Source of the DNA: Bacteroidota bacterium
GTDB taxonomy: Bacteria; Bacteroidota; Bacteroidia; 2-12-FULL-35-15
Assembly: GCA_017303895.1 (NCBI GenBank)
Contig: JAFLBF010000001.1
Coordinates: 310,001 to 374,000 of the forward strand
Direction of reading: 5' to 3'
DNA: 64,000 nt
Made by a program: the position numbers and the translations under genes. The notes below the pieces were generated by a model, which saw nothing but the letters and a program-made list of their open reading frames with translations, was not told the DNA's origin and made no database searches. This document shows, piece by piece, positions 48,090 to 62,560 of this stretch (position 1 is the stretch's first letter; each line of letters starts with the position of its first letter).

Positions 48090-48121
48090 CAAAAAACCTC
48101 CGGTGTTTACCGGAGGTTTTT
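48090..48121. terminator. Terminator at the left boundary of the accessory region
   Basis: AACCTCCGGT (48095-48104) pairs perfectly with ACCGGAGGTT (48109-48118) around GTTT, with A/T tracts on both sides. On the minus strand it directly follows the tRNA-3'-end-like piece, as expected for the terminator of a tRNA gene. Confidence 0.85.
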
Positions 48122-48133
48122 GAGGTCCCGAGC
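48122..48133 (-). other. Putative attachment-site remnant resembling a tRNA 3' end
   Basis: On the minus strand GCTCGGGACCTC reads like the last T-stem bases (GCT), the acceptor strand CGGGACC and discriminator T of a tRNA; a U73 tRNA such as tRNA-Cys would fit. It is directly followed by a terminator, but the sequence upstream (to the right) does not fold as a tRNA. This is what remains at the distal end when an element inserts into a tRNA 3' end. To its right begin genes of accessory type. The intact tRNA would then lie beyond the right edge. Confidence 0.4.
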
Positions 48134-48247: not shown

Positions 48248-48604
48248 TTAGCCTCTTTTGTCATTTGAACCTCCAATAGCTATACCAGCTAAAAGTGCGA
48301 GAAAAGCTAAAGCCATCCAACCACCGTTGCCATTGCTCGAAGTTTCTTTAGCCGGAACATGGATTATTCTTGGCTGTGGCTCAGGGCGTTTTTTAACCCC
48401 GGTAGCGTAATCGTGTTCCAGTCGTTTACTTGAGTCAAGAAGCGTTTCTTTTGCTTGTCCAAGCATCTTAAACATAGCCTCTGCTGCTGCGGAACCATTG
48501 TTTTTGTCAGGATGAAATAGCAACGCCTTACCCTTGTAGGCCTTATTGATTTCATCAATGGTTGCAGTGTGATGTATTTCTAAAAGTTCGTAGTAGTTTA
48601 CCAT
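48248..48604 (-). CDS. J-domain protein with a C-terminal membrane segment
   Basis: A 118-residue protein. The J domain (about 3-65) has YYELLEIHHTATIDEINKAY and the essential HPD at 31-33 (LLFHPDKNNG), needed to stimulate Hsp70 (DnaK). A Pro/Arg linker follows, then a hydrophobic tail (about 92-110, WMALAFLALLAGIAIG), so it is probably tail-anchored. It has no G/F or zinc domain. It lies 12 nt after the LRAT-like gene and most likely acts with it. It is the first gene inside the putative element. Confidence 0.88.
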   Translation of the reverse strand: MVNYYELLEIHHTATIDEINKAYKGKALLFHPDKNNGSAAAEAMFKMLGQAKETLLDSSKRLEHDYATGVKKRPEPQPRIIHVPAKETSSNGNGGWMALAFLALLAGIAIGGSNDKRG

Positions 48605-48616
48605 AATCTCAATTTT

Positions 48617-49141
48617 TTAATCGTTATCTCTATTTGCAGCGGTTGAAGCCAGTGCGCCAAGGGCGAAGAAGAATAGCCCCCATCCTGCTGCTTTCTTATT
48701 TTCAGAGGCCAAACCAATAAGTGCTGTAGCAGCTCCGCCCACCATCATTGTTTTACCTACTGCATCCACTTGTGGTGAATACTTTTTACCGTACTGTACA
48801 AATGAGGCATAATGCTGGCAGTTGTTCCAAATTAAGTTGTAGCCCTTTTCACCTATTTTAGATATAGCGCGTTTTACGGCCCCTCTCCTTTCAGTATGGT
48901 TGCCATTAAATCTTTCAATACGATTTGGCTCCAATACCTGTAAGAATTGATCCAACTCATGGTGTTTTACAATTTGTACACCATTAGTATAGTTTGCAGC
49001 GAAAAGCGGCTTATTTGTTTCGGAGTGGCGCCCAAGGTACACAGCGAAATGGTCAAACATCCCAGCGAATTTCTTTCTCAAAACGATGGCATCTGCTGGT
49101 TGCAGATTATTTTGTGTTACGAATGCTTCTGTATAAGTCAT
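48617..49141 (-). CDS. LRAT-like (NlpC/P60 superfamily) protein with hydrophobic C-terminus
   Basis: A 174-residue protein. The circularly permuted NlpC/P60 fold of the LRAT group is seen in PADAIVLRKKFAGMFDHFAVYLG (His31 probably catalytic) and NNCQHYASFVQYG (Cys108 in the NCxHF-like motif). The C-terminal about 50 residues hold two hydrophobic stretches (GGAATALIGLAS, GWGLFFFALGALAS). LRAT-like enzymes are lipid acyltransferases or phospholipases. Co-transcribed with the J-domain gene. In animals and viruses related folds modify membranes; the role here is unknown. Confidence 0.8.
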   Translation of the reverse strand: MTYTEAFVTQNNLQPADAIVLRKKFAGMFDHFAVYLGRHSETNKPLFAANYTNGVQIVKHHELDQFLQVLEPNRIERFNGNHTERRGAVKRAISKIGEKGYNLIWNNCQHYASFVQYGKKYSPQVDAVGKTMMVGGAATALIGLASENKKAAGWGLFFFALGALASTAANRDND

Positions 49142-49236
49142 AATTCTATTTTTCTAATTACACCGCTAAGGTCGTGCGTTTTTAGTCTGTTTTGAACTTT
49201 ACATCCATGGAAGTAAAGTTGGAAGTAAAGTTTTTA

Positions 49237-50118
49237 TCAATTAAATGTTTTTAGCCATTCTTTTATCTTCTGCTGATTTTCATTGTATCGTGAGAGATTA
49301 TTCTTAATCCGATTGATTCTTACTTTTGGAGTAACATTTTCCAAAAATATTTTCTCGAAGTCAAGTACATGGTATGTCAAAACGGAGTAATATCCCTTTG
49401 CGTTATGTGCAGAAACGTAAGTTCCTTTTATCTCACTGAAAAAATGAAGAATAATATCAGCCTTTGAATGCGAGAATTTAAGTTCCAAATTGGTAGTTGG
49501 TTGGCTGAATAATTTATTTATGTCTTTCTTTTTACATCCAGTAACATCTGCTATTAGACTTAAAAACTCTTCACGTTTAACATGAGTGCCTTTCCATTTG
49601 TAATACGGAATTTTATTGGTGTACTGCTCGGGCTTGGGCAATACAACGTTTGATTGGTGCTTTTGAGATTCCATTTCAAGCACATCACTTTCAATCCAAA
49701 TGAAAGATTTTAATTTTTCGAAATCATAGTCGTGAAATCGGCATGTATCCTGTAATGAAACAAGCACCTGGTAAGATAGAATAAGCTTATCGGAAACGGT
49801 TTGTTCCAGAAATGATTTGAGTATTGCTCTGCATATCGTACTCAATAACTCCTCATACTGCTCTTTCTCTTTTATATCGCTAATGGTAACGAGTGTTTGA
49901 TTAACACCAGATAAAAGGAGTGACGCAATATGACCAACCTGAATTGATTTTATCTCCCCCTTTTCTAAAACTTTACGCTCTGAAGCTAAGCCTTCATTTA
50001 GTAGGATGACAGCATGATGCAAAGGAATATAAAACCCATGCTTATCAAGCAGGAGTTTTATTTCCTTGTATTCTTTATCAGCATATAGACTGCCGAGAAT
50101 TTTATGCAGGTCAATCAT
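49237..50118 (-). CDS. Hypothetical protein, 293 residues
   Basis: I do not recognise a family. It is a soluble, mostly helical protein without signal peptide or membrane segment. The N-terminal half (about 20-130) is rich in Leu/Ile helices (HHAVILLNEGLASERKVLEK, LLSTICRAILKSFLEQ). The C-terminal part contains YYKWKGTHVKREEFLSLIAD and DINKLFSQPTTNLELKFS, then LSRYNENQQKIKEWLKTF. The C-terminal pattern (W-x-G, then a helical pair, then a short DNA-binding-like helix) is seen in other Bacteroidota element proteins, including the 444-residue protein at 57528. Function unknown. Confidence 0.6.
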   Translation of the reverse strand: MIDLHKILGSLYADKEYKEIKLLLDKHGFYIPLHHAVILLNEGLASERKVLEKGEIKSIQVGHIASLLLSGVNQTLVTISDIKEKEQYEELLSTICRAILKSFLEQTVSDKLILSYQVLVSLQDTCRFHDYDFEKLKSFIWIESDVLEMESQKHQSNVVLPKPEQYTNKIPYYKWKGTHVKREEFLSLIADVTGCKKKDINKLFSQPTTNLELKFSHSKADIILHFFSEIKGTYVSAHNAKGYYSVLTYHVLDFEKIFLENVTPKVRINRIKNNLSRYNENQQKIKEWLKTFN

Positions 50119-52132: not shown

Positions 52133-52229
52133 GATTTATCGTAATCCGAAAATAGCAGATGGAAGTTTAAGGAAACAAATATGAACGAAAAGCCTGATGT
52201 GAATGAAGTGAACGGAATGAATGACAGCC

Positions 52230-52778: not shown

Positions 52779-53261
52779 GCAGGCGAATATAGCACCTGAA
52801 TATTTAAGGAAACAACCTTAGGTAAATTAAACCAAGGTTATTTTACTCAACGGAAATAAGATTTCTTTTCCTAAGGAACTACCATTCTAATCTGCTATAA
52901 TCGACTTAGATGCTTTAGCGCAGATAAGATTTCGCTGGTTTTACTAACTCGTTATGTAAGTGACCTGGATATGATAGTGAAGGCGAGCGAAGCGAGACCA
53001 TGGACTCATTCCGTTGTGAGTCGGCTTGCCGGCTCACAGTGTAGGGAACCACACTAAAGAAAATTTTAAATAGGCATCCAGTGAGCGTAGCGAACGATGC
53101 TGGCTTAATTAAATAATAATAGTGGCTTCAGATGTAAAGCATACCAAGTGGTTAGGATGTTTTTGTGTTTGCGTAACAAACAGAATAAGTTCTAATGTGG
53201 TTACTACATAAACAGAATCAAGATAGAATGAGTTTACTGCATAAACAGAATAAACAAAAAA
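52779..53261. other. Noncoding region with several hairpins between divergent genes
   Basis: This 483-base stretch holds no gene. In its middle a locally GC-richer part (52983-53103) contains an inverted repeat with arms GTGAGTCGGC (53016-53025) and GCCGGCTCAC (53028-53037), a competing hairpin GACTCA/TGAGTC (53003-53008 with 53017-53022), AGTGT/ACACT (53038-53042 with 53051-53055) and GCATC/GATGC (53074-53078 with 53096-53100). GAGCGAAGCGAG and GAGCGTAGCGAA are near-repeats. It could be a small RNA, an attenuator or a transfer/replication origin. The right end carries three phased direct repeats. Confidence 0.45.
53178..53251 (+). repeat. Three direct repeats of AAACAGAAT at 32-33 bp spacing
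   Basis: AAACAGAAT occurs at 53178-53186, 53210-53218 and 53243-53251. Copies 2 and 3 share a longer unit (TTACTRCATAAACAGAATMA). The start-to-start spacing of 32 and 33 bp is three helical turns, putting all copies on one face of the DNA. They end 10 bp before the ATG at 53262. This fits an operator array or iterons for a protein encoded by the excision/integration cassette. Confidence 0.6.
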
Positions 53262-53621: not shown

Positions 53622-53955
53622 AATCGTTAATGGAAATTTTCTTAAAAATAAAATAATTACACTCGCAATGAATCAGGGCCAAGAATTGATGATGGTGCAA
53701 CAACGTCTCAATGTAATTGAGATGCAGGTGAAGGAGGCTCTTAGCCTTTTAAATGCGCTGGTGGTGGAACGTAATACTATCGGTGAGTGGATAGATGAAG
53801 AAAGTGTAATGCGTATAACCGGATTAAGTAAATCCAGTTTATATGAATTGCGAAGGAAGAATAGAATTACATCATCTACCATCAGCGGGAAGGCGAAATT
53901 TTACAAGCTTAAAGATTTTGAGAAAATTTTAACAAAAAATGAATATCTAAGATGA
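53614..53955 (+). CDS. HTH_17/excisionase-type DNA-binding protein
   Basis: A 113-residue protein. The C-terminal half has the MerR-like helix-turn-helix of excisionases: IGEWIDEESVMRITGLSKSS and LYELRRKNRITSSTISGKAKF. The N-terminal half is a predicted coiled coil (MMVQQRLNVIEMQVKEALSL). Start at 53614 overlaps the previous stop; the Met at 53668 (MNQGQELMMVQQ) is an alternative. The stop overlaps the integrase ATG (ATGA), so the three genes are coupled. It probably sets the direction of recombination. Confidence 0.82.
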   Translation: MNKIVNGNFLKNKIITLAMNQGQELMMVQQRLNVIEMQVKEALSLLNALVVERNTIGEWIDEESVMRITGLSKSSLYELRRKNRITSSTISGKAKFYKLKDFEKILTKNEYLR

Positions 53956-55244
53956 AAGTAAAACTTGGCGAACGCCCACCGTATTCGGTCAAATTCTTTT
54001 TGAGTAACTATACGCGAGAAAAAAGAGCGGAACACACTGTTCATTGCCGTATTTGCATGAATAGAGTTAAGTCAGAATTTTCACTCTTTGTAAATGTGAA
54101 GCCCGAAGATTGGGATCATGTGAATGGCCGATTCTTACCCAACACAAAACATCTATCACATTTGAACTTTAAACTTTCAGAAATTGAGGGAAGGATTGAA
54201 GAGCATTACCAGGAGTTAAAATATTCCGGTATGGCGATTTCCGCAAAACTGATTCGGAACAAAATGCTTGGGAAGGGGCCTACGCTTTCAGCCACAACGC
54301 TTTTGAAGTTCTTTGACCAATATATCACTGAGATAAGTCACAAAACGGAGGAATATGAAGCACCTACCGTTCAGCATTATCGCGCAACACGTGACCATTT
54401 AATTAAGTTTTTTAAATCGGTTGGTATTACGGACATGCCTCTTAAGTCGCTTAACCGGAATATGCTTGACAGATTTGAAACATATTTATTGAGTACACAT
54501 AATGACCAATTAGGACGACCAATGAAACGCAACACCGCTAACCGCTACTTGATTAAACTGAAGGTGGTGGTGAATAATGCCCTCCGAAAAGAACTCATTG
54601 CAAAAAATCCTTTTGTTGGATTCAGAATAAAATATGTGATTACTAAAAAGGTTCACCTCACCACTGATGAAATTAAACTTATCAAAAAACACAGCCTTGG
54701 TGAAAATCCTGCACTTATCAGAGTGAGGGATGTATTCATGTTCTCCGTTTACACCGGTCTTAGATTTACCGATGCGCTGAATTTGAAATCACAATCTATC
54801 AGTATGCACGAGGACGGTAACTATTGGATAACGCTTGACCAGGCAAAGACGGATGATCCTTTGCACATCCCCTTACTTTTAGACGCGGAGAAAATTTACT
54901 TGAAGTACATGAACCGACCGGAATTAAAAGGGCATGTATTGCCACGCCTTTCTAATCAGAAAGTAAATCTTAACCTCAAACTGATAGGTGAACTTGTTGG
55001 CATCCAAAAAAAATTGACGCACCATGTGGCACGCCATACTTTCGCAACGACTATCATGCTTGAGCAGGGGATTGATATAAAGGCGGTGAGCAAATTATTG
55101 GGGCATACGAATTTGAAAACAACCGAAATTTACGCTCAGGTAACACGCAAACAACTATCGGATGTAGCCGCAAGGTTAAACAAGAAAAGTGCTCAGGTGT
55201 CGCTTGCGCAGCAAGTAATCAAAGAAACAGTAAATCAATCTTAG
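53952..55244 (+). CDS. Tyrosine recombinase (site-specific integrase)
   Basis: A 430-residue integrase of the Bacteroidota transposon/ICE type. N-terminal arm-binding region (about 1-95), SAM-like core-binding domain (about 105-210, TVQHYRATRDHLIKFFKSVG), catalytic domain (about 220-400). Catalytic residues: Arg271 in YTGLRFTDAL, His358 and Arg361 in HHVARHTFATTI, His385 in LLGHTNLKTTEIY, and Tyr394. All are present, so it is likely active. It is the last gene of the coupled cassette. The presumed attachment site is the tRNA-like remnant at 48.12 kb or another site not in the window. Confidence 0.94.
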   Translation: MKVKLGERPPYSVKFFLSNYTREKRAEHTVHCRICMNRVKSEFSLFVNVKPEDWDHVNGRFLPNTKHLSHLNFKLSEIEGRIEEHYQELKYSGMAISAKLIRNKMLGKGPTLSATTLLKFFDQYITEISHKTEEYEAPTVQHYRATRDHLIKFFKSVGITDMPLKSLNRNMLDRFETYLLSTHNDQLGRPMKRNTANRYLIKLKVVVNNALRKELIAKNPFVGFRIKYVITKKVHLTTDEIKLIKKHSLGENPALIRVRDVFMFSVYTGLRFTDALNLKSQSISMHEDGNYWITLDQAKTDDPLHIPLLLDAEKIYLKYMNRPELKGHVLPRLSNQKVNLNLKLIGELVGIQKKLTHHVARHTFATTIMLEQGIDIKAVSKLLGHTNLKTTEIYAQVTRKQLSDVAARLNKKSAQVSLAQQVIKETVNQS

Positions 55245-55776: not shown

Positions 55777-56718
55777 TTAAAGTTTATCTCCCACTTGAGT
55801 GAGTATGTGTTCTACAATTGCCTTCATAAATTCAGGCGGAATGGTATTACCACATAATTTATGCGCATCCTTATCCTTTACATCTGCCGGAATCTCATAC
55901 CAATCAGGGAATGTTGAGAACTTTAAATCCTGCTTAATGCTTAGCTTAGATTCTTGCCCGTCTTCATAAGTAATTACTTCGCCTGATGCAGTGCGCGTGG
56001 TCATATATTGCTCGTTAGATTTAATTGTCTTTTTAGACTGGCCAACCTTCACACCAATTATCTCAGGTGTAACATCAACGATTCTTAAACCATTCACATT
56101 CTCATACTGAGGTTTTGGTGGTGTGGGCACAACACCAAACTCTTTTAAATAACCTATAAAAATAAAACGGTAACGTTTCTGAGGTGTGTTGTAATTCAAC
56201 GCTAACAGTTTAAAACATCTTACCTCATAGTGTGGCCCAAGCTTTTCCATTATGCGCAACTTGATTTCATTGAAGATGGCAATATTACGATCATCATCCA
56301 TCCCAGGTACGTTCTCAATGATGAAACATTTTGGAAGTACTCCTGAGATAAGATCGATGCTGTGCAGGAACAAAAGATTGCGCGGATCAAGCGGATCAAT
56401 TTTCCCTTTGGCGACTGAAAACCCTTGGCAGGGTGGAGAAAGCAGCATGATAGACAACTCTTTCGGCATCATTAGTATTCTACGTAAGATGTCATCTGCT
56501 TTAATGGCTAAGATGTCAGCCAACCAGAAAGGGACATAACGCTCACCTTTAAAGTTGTGCTCAAAAGTTCTCTGAGCAACTGACCAGTTGTCAATCGCAA
56601 GCAACTCTTTAATGTAGTTGTAAAGTAGTCCGAGCGTACCACCACCGGCACCGCTGAATAAGGTAATCGCTGTGATCACCTTATTTAAAGTTGGATGTAT
56701 GTGATTATTATTTTCCAT
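55777..56718 (-). CDS. DNA (cytosine-5)-methyltransferase
   Basis: A 313-residue m5C methyltransferase. Motif I LFSGAGGGTLGLLYN, catalytic motif IV PPCQG with Cys97 (MLLSPPCQGFSVAKG), motif VI ENVPG (135-139), motif VIII QKRYR, a target-recognition region at about 195-280, motif X KLCGNTIPPEFMKAI. All catalytic elements are present. No cognate endonuclease is seen next to it, so it looks like an orphan methyltransferase, as on many mobile elements. It overlaps the end of the ParB-like gene by 11 bp, so they are co-translated. Confidence 0.93.
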   Translation of the reverse strand: MENNNHIHPTLNKVITAITLFSGAGGGTLGLLYNYIKELLAIDNWSVAQRTFEHNFKGERYVPFWLADILAIKADDILRRILMMPKELSIMLLSPPCQGFSVAKGKIDPLDPRNLLFLHSIDLISGVLPKCFIIENVPGMDDDRNIAIFNEIKLRIMEKLGPHYEVRCFKLLALNYNTPQKRYRFIFIGYLKEFGVVPTPPKPQYENVNGLRIVDVTPEIIGVKVGQSKKTIKSNEQYMTTRTASGEVITYEDGQESKLSIKQDLKFSTFPDWYEIPADVKDKDAHKLCGNTIPPEFMKAIVEHILTQVGDKL

Positions 56719-60949: not shown

Positions 60950-62560
60950 ATGGCTAAGAAGAATAAAGAGATTACTAAACCAAAAGCCGATATAGATTTT
61001 GAAAAAGATTTATGGGGTGTGGCAAATGAATTGCGCGGTGCGGTTGCAGAGAATCAGTATAAAGACTACGTTCTTTCGCTTATCTTTTTAAAGCACATGA
61101 GCGAACGATATGAAGTTCGCAGAGATGAATTGTTGCAATTAGTAAGCGAACCTAAATCAAATTACTACACAAAGAACAAAAAAGAAATTGAAGCGATTGT
61201 AAGCGATCCGGACGAATATCTTTCCAAGAACACATACATCATCCCTATTGAGGCTACTTGGCAATATTTGCAGGATAATGCTGAGCAGGATGATATTAAA
61301 GTAAAGGTGGATGATGCGTTTGAACTATTGGAGAATACAATATCACAATATCGCCCGGAGTTAAAAGGCATCTTACCAAGAATATTTGTAAAGAGTCAGT
61401 TAACTGCTAAACAAACCACCGGGCTCATTAACTTATTTTCTAATCAGAAATTTTCTGAAAAGTATAATCCTGAAAGTGATGTATTAGGTCGCATCTATGA
61501 ATACTACATTGGACGTTTTGCAATTGCCGAGGGCTCCGGTGCCGGACAATTCTTTACACCGGGTTGCATTGTGCGCCTATTAGTAGAAATGCTTGAACCC
61601 TTAAAAGGAAAGATTGCCGATTTAGCTTGTGGTAGTGGTGGAATGTTTGTACAGTCTATGAAATTCATCAATGCACATGGAGGAACAAAGAAAGATATTG
61701 CTATTTACGGACAAGAACGTTACGATGGTACATTGCGTTTAGCTAAGATGAACCTTGCTTTACGTGATTTAAACTTTCAATTAGAACTTGGTGATTCATT
61801 GTTGCAAGATAAGTTGGCCGACCTCAAAGCTGATTACATTATCATGAACCCTCCGTTTAACGTGAGCCAGTGGCACCCGGAAGATTTACCGGAGAACGAC
61901 CCACGTTTATTCAAAATACCAGAATCTAACGATCCTGTTGTAACTGATGGTAATGCTAACTACATGTGGTTTCAAACCGTGTGGTCGCACTTAAGCAATA
62001 ATGGTAATGCAGGTATTGTTATGGCGAATGGTGCCATGACGTCCAATAATAAAGGGGAGCGAAACGTGCGTGAATACATGATAAATCAAAGCATGATTGA
62101 TTGCATTGTTCGTTTACCAGATAAATTATTTCTAACAACAGGGATACCGGCCTGCCTTTTCTTTTTAAGCAAAACGCGCAAGGGGAATAAGCAACATCGT
62201 GAGCGCAAGGATGAAATACTATTCATTGATGCAAGTAAATTGGGTGAAATGGTGAATCGTAAACTTCGGGTATTAACTGATGGTGAAATTGAAAGGATTG
62301 CCGGCACTTATCATGAATGGAGAAACATAAAAGGGAAATACGAAGATATAAAAGCTTATTGCAAATCAGCATCAATTGAAGATGTGATTAAACAAGATTA
62401 CAAATTAACACCAGGTATTTATGTGGGTAACGAAGATGCAGAAATTGATGAAGTCCCTTTTGAAGAAAGAATGAACGCTCTAAAAAAAATGTTGAATGAA
62501 CAGTTTACAAAAAGCAACGAGATGCAACAAAGAATAGAAATGAATCTGTCAAAACTATAA
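60950..62560 (+). CDS. hsdM: Type I restriction-modification system, methyltransferase subunit
   Basis: A 536-residue N6-adenine methyltransferase subunit. The N-terminal helical domain (about 15-165) has FEKDLWGVANELRGAVAENQ. The catalytic domain has AGQFFTPGCIVRLLVEML, motif I ADLACGSGGMFVQ (about 222-234), QERYDGTLRLAKMNLALR, and the catalytic NPPF at 300-303 (MNPPFNVSQW). TTGIPACLFFLSK and RKLRVLTDGEIERI follow as in HsdM. The length is standard. The enzyme methylates adenine in the bipartite site recognised by HsdS. Confidence 0.96.
   Translation: MAKKNKEITKPKADIDFEKDLWGVANELRGAVAENQYKDYVLSLIFLKHMSERYEVRRDELLQLVSEPKSNYYTKNKKEIEAIVSDPDEYLSKNTYIIPIEATWQYLQDNAEQDDIKVKVDDAFELLENTISQYRPELKGILPRIFVKSQLTAKQTTGLINLFSNQKFSEKYNPESDVLGRIYEYYIGRFAIAEGSGAGQFFTPGCIVRLLVEMLEPLKGKIADLACGSGGMFVQSMKFINAHGGTKKDIAIYGQERYDGTLRLAKMNLALRDLNFQLELGDSLLQDKLADLKADYIIMNPPFNVSQWHPEDLPENDPRLFKIPESNDPVVTDGNANYMWFQTVWSHLSNNGNAGIVMANGAMTSNNKGERNVREYMINQSMIDCIVRLPDKLFLTTGIPACLFFLSKTRKGNKQHRERKDEILFIDASKLGEMVNRKLRVLTDGEIERIAGTYHEWRNIKGKYEDIKAYCKSASIEDVIKQDYKLTPGIYVGNEDAEIDEVPFEERMNALKKMLNEQFTKSNEMQQRIEMNLSKL

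Follow-up and report, generated by a model that had tools for sequence, protein, structure and literature searches.

The window analysed here, a 64,000-nt stretch of a contig from a Bacteroidota bacterium, contains a small gene for a J-domain protein next to a gene for an LRAT-type protein (Table 1). A first-pass annotation had treated the two as one unit, perhaps a defence or toxin-type system or a lipid-modification unit.

The LRAT and J genes at the edge of an integrative element

Both proteins score above the Pfam cut-offs (PF04970, 41.5 bits against a cut-off of 24.3, 1.9e-10, for the LRAT protein; PF00226, 68.9 bits against 27.8, 4e-19, for the J protein), so neither gene is a chance ORF. 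The residues and tails named in the first-pass annotation were confirmed: His31 and Cys108 are present in the LRAT protein, as is H110, and its C-terminus has two moderately hydrophobic stretches starting near residues 127 and 151; the J protein has an intact HPD and a hydrophobic C-terminus, with a mean Kyte-Doolittle value of 2.29 over 16 residues from residue 97. The genes are indeed 12 nt apart on the minus strand, with LRAT transcribed first.

Table 1. Features of the locus, in coordinates of the window
Feature	Position	Strand	Description
Left copy of 16-bp direct repeat of tRNA-Cys 3' end (probable attachment site)	48118..48133		repeat match
J-domain protein	48248..48604	-	118 aa; HPD at 31-33; hydrophobic C-terminal segment from about residue 95 (probable tail anchor)
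LRAT/PLAAT-like cysteine enzyme (putative)	48617..49141	-	174 aa; H31/N50/C108; C-terminal hydrophobic helical hairpin
Operator-like near-palindrome (26 bp, one mismatched pair) and one further half-site	49195..49231		in the 95-nt gap before LRAT
UP, helical 293-aa protein of unknown family	49237..50118	-	directly upstream of LRAT; conserved partner of the window LRAT lineage
Tyrosine integrase of the element	53952..55244	+	Pfam PF00589 3e-23, PF13102, PF17293
DNA cytosine methyltransferase, element cargo	55777..56718	-	PADLOC MTase_II 3.4e-44
Type I restriction-modification methyltransferase HsdM, element cargo	60950..62560	+	PADLOC, Pfam

The proposed position at the edge of a mobile element also holds. 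The 16-bp repeat, located about 115 bp beyond the end of the J gene, has one further copy in the joined 104 kb, which lies on the far side, where a tRNA-Cys gene has its 3' end (C1:386095). Together, the integrase and the direct repeat of the tRNA 3' end identify a 28-kb integrative element at a tRNA gene, which extends from window position 48118 to L191:12110 (C1:358118-386110). Besides the two methyltransferases in Table 1, it carries a RES-domain protein, an HsdS-like ORF recognised by eye and, just past the window end, HsdR, IetA and IetS. The base composition of the element is that of its flanks and does not mark it as foreign. The ion-channel gene on the left flank has no clear orthologue in 18 congeners, and therefore no empty site could be read. 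Two repeats may be sites of the integrase or of a regulator, namely a 33-nt tandem pair (53187-53252) immediately preceding the integrase group and a 32-nt pair (52147-52178 and 52784-52815) ahead of two adjacent genes. The scans of window and element proteins (PADLOC on part of the element ORFs; Pfam) turned up no cyclase, so that the window unit does not qualify as CBASS, membership of which takes a CD-NTase cyclase in the operon.

A PLAAT-like protein with an altered catalytic set

The predicted structure of the LRAT protein (pLDDT 90.8) ends in two helices, 123-145 and 149-169, and is closest to human PLAAT3/H-REV107 (VIA-align Z 10.4, 2.8 A over 96 residues); a sequence profile likewise matches PLAAT2 (2.4e-9) and PLAAT3. 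In a plain Foldseek search with the same model, a complex I subunit of Euglena ranked first (1.2e-5) and no PLAAT was among the best 50 matches listed. H31 and C108 are kept in all 18 aligned LRAT rows and H110 in 17 of them. PLAAT enzymes have a second catalytic His at the column of N50, which is filled by Asn in 17/18 rows, including the window protein, and by His in one. Judged by its sequence, the window protein is therefore filed as an LRAT-domain, PLAAT-like protein and not as a PLAAT enzyme, and because the second His is replaced by Asn, activity on lipids is not assured; a Cys-His-Asn set would be a papain-like arrangement. The hydrophobic tail is common in the family (22 of 24 proteins measured, at a simple cut-off of 1.5), the window protein falling just below the cut-off with a value of 1.48. 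A resemblance of this tail to the hairpins of pore-forming toxins (Foldseek E above 2; VIA Z 7.0-7.6) was attributed to a common helical arrangement and was not used as evidence.

The family is sparsely distributed. The window protein is the sole PF04970 match in its own genome; PF04970 is present in 17 of 395 genomes of the class and in 5/46 genomes of one order, and an LRAT profile matches 9/87 genomes of another order. The search of relatives gave no match to the window protein in the other 58 genomes, 35 of them congeners. Phages were searched with no match; plasmids gave matches in 10 records, all below 60% identity, and viral contigs 16 LRAT loci. The only match among genome contigs (L002) was short and spurious and was dropped.

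The conserved partner of LRAT is the upstream gene

To define the unit, the surroundings of 26 LRAT loci were read, a set that excludes the low-scoring or frame-broken loci L019, L021, L023 and L024, the spurious L002, and the partner of L016 beyond L043. A J gene is near LRAT in two of them, the window and L036, and absent from the other 24, which rules out J plus LRAT as the conserved main unit; the search for adjacent LRAT and J genes proposed with the first-pass annotation thus finds the exact pair largely not conserved. Nor was a J gene seen among the ORFs of five plasmid LRAT regions (or by product name in the four annotated ones), or as a J match among the ORFs of the 16 viral-contig loci.

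The first-pass annotation had missed the conserved partner, an upstream gene of about 290 codons, here called UP. In eight of the nine loci of the window LRAT lineage (the window, L031, L078, L079, L032, L033, L034 and L035; UP is cut by the contig end in L079), it immediately precedes LRAT on the same strand, while it does so in none of the 17 other LRAT loci; the ninth locus of the lineage, L058, begins at the LRAT gene because its contig ends there. Complete UP copies have 285-321 residues. A branch (80/96) of the LRAT tree has all UP-linked proteins on the same side. L039, in which the contig ends a short way upstream of LRAT, falls with them. The carriers of this lineage come from several families (f1, f2, f10, f33, f41).

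The UP model (pLDDT 75.3) is mostly helical. UP matches no Pfam, NCBIfam or PADLOC family, and weak single-member matches (DndC, 0.0023; AcrF10, 1e-4) were not used. Its structure has no Foldseek match at E<=0.001, its profile finds no relative among solved structures (best E 0.07), and the best VIA-align score (Z 8.2), to designed helical proteins, is not informative. By eye we take its C-terminal part to resemble RteC regulators, a likeness that Pfam does not support. No plasmid match to UP was found; over 395 genomes of the phylum the UP profile retrieved its own genome and three weak partial matches, the known carriers seemingly lying outside that draw.

The near-palindrome between UP and LRAT suggests a separate, regulated promoter for LRAT-J. 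A like palindrome was reached in 3 of 2000 shuffles of the 95-nt gap, and none was present in the seven relatives' gaps examined. The promoter scan was near its chance count, and terminators numbered 4 against a mean of 2.0. In two other loci of the window LRAT lineage (L014:1976-2182 and L034:10427-10645), LRAT is followed, at the position of J in the window, by a small protein that has a single hydrophobic segment and whose tail is similar; the L014 protein has no Pfam family.

The J-domain protein

The window J protein is one of five J-domain matches in its genome, and it matches J domains in 287 of 295 genomes of the class. Among the matches listed, the best outside its own locus scores at most 57.2 bits, against 256.4 for itself. 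The sixth-ranked match, in G203, is a J protein of 133 aa that ends in a hydrophobic tail. It is encoded between DUF2188 and a protein kinase gene and followed downstream by HNH-SAVED and then by cyclase-like and E2-like genes, both recognised by eye. A search for HNH-SAVED gave matches of this type in 17/345 genomes, four of them near full length, and a short J gene with a hydrophobic tail adjoins two of these four CBASS loci, a count that is not independent, since one (in G354) was first met through LRAT and the other through J.

The window J and the two short J proteins next to HNH-SAVED share the loop HPDKN(N/G)GS, which was found in no others among 57 HPD-containing sequences compared. 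The J tree neither unites the window protein with the CBASS-linked ones nor forms a clade of the three; it is built on few columns, has long branches and includes L118_18376, an ORF with an HPD that probably does not encode a J protein. Elsewhere in the class, hydrophobic tails are also found in the products of ordinary J genes.

Immune-gene company of related loci

Six of the 26 LRAT loci adjoin immune operons, namely CBASS in four (L036, L037, L076, L085), Pycsar in one (L038) and multiubiquitin-E1 in one (L075); these are raw counts over genes picked by eye for PADLOC rather than a comparison with matched control regions, and the CBASS company of four related loci says nothing of the window unit's own membership. 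In L037 and L085 the order is LRAT, 2TM effector, cyclase, E2 (the E2 of L037 by PADLOC, that of L085 by position and likeness). L036 has DUF2188, LRAT, J, HNH-SAVED effector, cyclase and a short ORF read as E2-like, with the LRAT and J genes 418 nt apart; L038 has LRAT, PycTM and PycC, and L075 (the same locus as L053) LRAT, multiubiquitin and E1. L076 encodes LRAT, cyclase, E1-E2 and JAB on one strand. The effector often stands first in a CBASS operon, as LRAT does in L076; the gene at the end of that stretch (L076:4030-9510), of 593 codons, appears SAVED-like by eye. L031, L077, L035, L086 and L033 have type I RM, ThsB-like, OLD/GajA-like or methyltransferase genes no more than about 9 kb from LRAT.

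Among 25 DUF2188 loci, three have LRAT and two have J at a distance of at most 1.5 kb, G354 having both; in G284 LRAT is farther downstream of DUF2188. A recurring cassette, recognised partly by eye, consists of XRE and ImmA/IrrE-like genes, DUF2188, a slot (LRAT, short J or neither) and then CBASS or multiubiquitin-E1 genes (L118:6247-11944, L036:8477-14017, L037:6866-11701, L085:3836-6816, L075, L172).

In one Vibrio cluster, PMC12409351 lists an LRAT gene together with an integrase, DUF2787 genes and a DNA-binding protein that has defence-model hits; an LRAT gene also adjoins DUF2787 in an Aeromonas plasmid record (L004). No paper describing an LRAT-J or UP-LRAT system was found in the open-access literature, subscription journals and bioRxiv lying mostly outside that search.

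Possible function and alternatives

The most economical account of the observed gene order, domains, predicted fold, conservation of UP with LRAT, element boundaries and defence-gene company is a mobile immune module in which UP-LRAT forms the core and J is an optional co-chaperone at the membrane. We tentatively read UP-LRAT-J as a candidate module for abortive infection whose membrane effector is PLAAT-like and whose gatekeeper is helical, a plausible reading that we would not yet call probable. Beyond these observations, we infer the enzyme activity, the trigger, the damage to the membrane and what UP and J each do. The unit would be carried as cargo by the tRNA-Cys-inserted island alongside other defence genes. 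LRAT, a putative cysteine enzyme (H31/N50/C108), would be held at the membrane by its C-terminal hairpin, and UP would keep it off or sense the trigger; once released, it might act on membrane phospholipids, as a phospholipase or by acyl transfer, so that the membrane is damaged and the cell sacrificed. The probably tail-anchored J protein, where present, could bring DnaK to the membrane to hold or remodel LRAT; the first-pass annotation had suggested that such recruitment could switch LRAT on or off. Counting against this reading are, above all, the PADLOC-known effectors beside LRAT in related immune operons (see below), and also the failure of UP to match any family or fold, the scarcity of J near LRAT and the Asn in place of the second PLAAT His.

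The earlier proposal of a defence or toxin-type system stands as the best-supported class, because the element also carries defence genes and LRAT recurs in immune operons; J plus LRAT as its conserved two-gene unit is not supported. A lipid-modification unit acting by acyl transfer, unrelated to defence or killing, would agree with the naming of the solved relatives as phospholipase A and acyltransferase and with the fold match to PLAAT3, but the sparse distribution of PF04970, the place in a mobile element and the defence-gene company speak against it, and we regard it as improbable. LRAT need not be the killer: because an effector known to PADLOC adjoins it in four of these six operons (L036, L037, L038 and L085), it may instead have an accessory or regulatory role as an enzyme that accompanies various immune modules, for instance by modifying or processing one of the other components. 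Its frequent neighbours, DUF2188 and XRE/ImmA-IrrE-like genes, look regulatory by eye. The membrane tail and PLAAT fold suit a membrane-acting enzyme, however, and the window lineage has no other effector candidate beside UP-LRAT; we consider an accessory role rather unlikely.

The small adjacent genes near the element end, the operator-like palindrome upstream of LRAT and the conserved UP-LRAT order, with UP as the constant neighbour, would also suit a toxin-antitoxin-like addiction module through which the element would be retained by its host, with LRAT as toxin and UP or J as neutraliser. Yet UP is large for an antitoxin, the palindrome was not found in the relatives' gaps and J is rarely present; we regard such a module as improbable. 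Whichever of these explanations holds, J may be a passenger, beside LRAT by chance and functionally unlinked. Its rarity near LRAT, the J tree and the tailed J genes elsewhere in the class favour this, while the 12-nt gap and common direction of transcription, the independent occurrence of LRAT with J in the CBASS locus L036, and the presence of such a J gene in two of the four near-full-length HNH-SAVED loci speak against it. We consider a passenger J a real possibility, somewhat short of probable.

A broader and rather doubtful proposal is that UP-LRAT(-J) represents an undescribed immune system with a membrane-anchored PLAAT-like effector, controlled by a dedicated helical sensor and, in some copies, by a tail-anchored J protein coupling it to DnaK, a chaperone on which some phages depend. 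LRAT and J genes with membrane segments would then occupy the accessory positions in a wider immune cassette of Bacteroidota, which runs from XRE and ImmA/IrrE-like genes through DUF2188 and the slot to CBASS, Pycsar or ubiquitin-like genes. Bacterial immune effectors and animal PLAAT enzymes would have a common origin. If the immune-module reading is right, a PLAAT-type membrane enzyme would join the list of bacterial immune effectors, UP-LRAT would be a conserved two-gene core directly testable for phage protection, and one would have to ask whether immunity is linked to the DnaK machine by the membrane-anchored J proteins of CBASS loci.

Comparison with known systems

An LRAT-like hydrolase has been named beside a type III-B CRISPR locus (PMC12825302), which resembles the window in placing an LRAT-like gene in defence company; the passage on it names neither UP nor J. 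The J proteins beside HNH-SAVED CBASS genes (L036, L118/L149) are, like the window J, short, with a hydrophobic tail and the HPDKN(N/G)GS loop, whereas the window J adjoins UP-LRAT and the tree does not unite them. CBASS includes a phospholipase effector type, CapV, and the window unit may similarly employ a phospholipase-type membrane enzyme, whose relatives adjoin CBASS genes in L036, L037, L076 and L085; it differs from CBASS in that the window genes scanned yielded no cyclase, and none of the libraries used identifies UP as one. Animal-type PLAAT/HRASLS enzymes (PLAAT2, PLAAT3; PF04970) transfer acyl groups. Unlike them, the putative window enzyme has Asn50 for the second His and a two-helix-hairpin tail and is encoded with UP in a bacterial mobile element, but it shares with them the fold of the catalytic domain and the NCxH motif with its surrounding residues, and PLAAT, too, has a C-terminal membrane segment.
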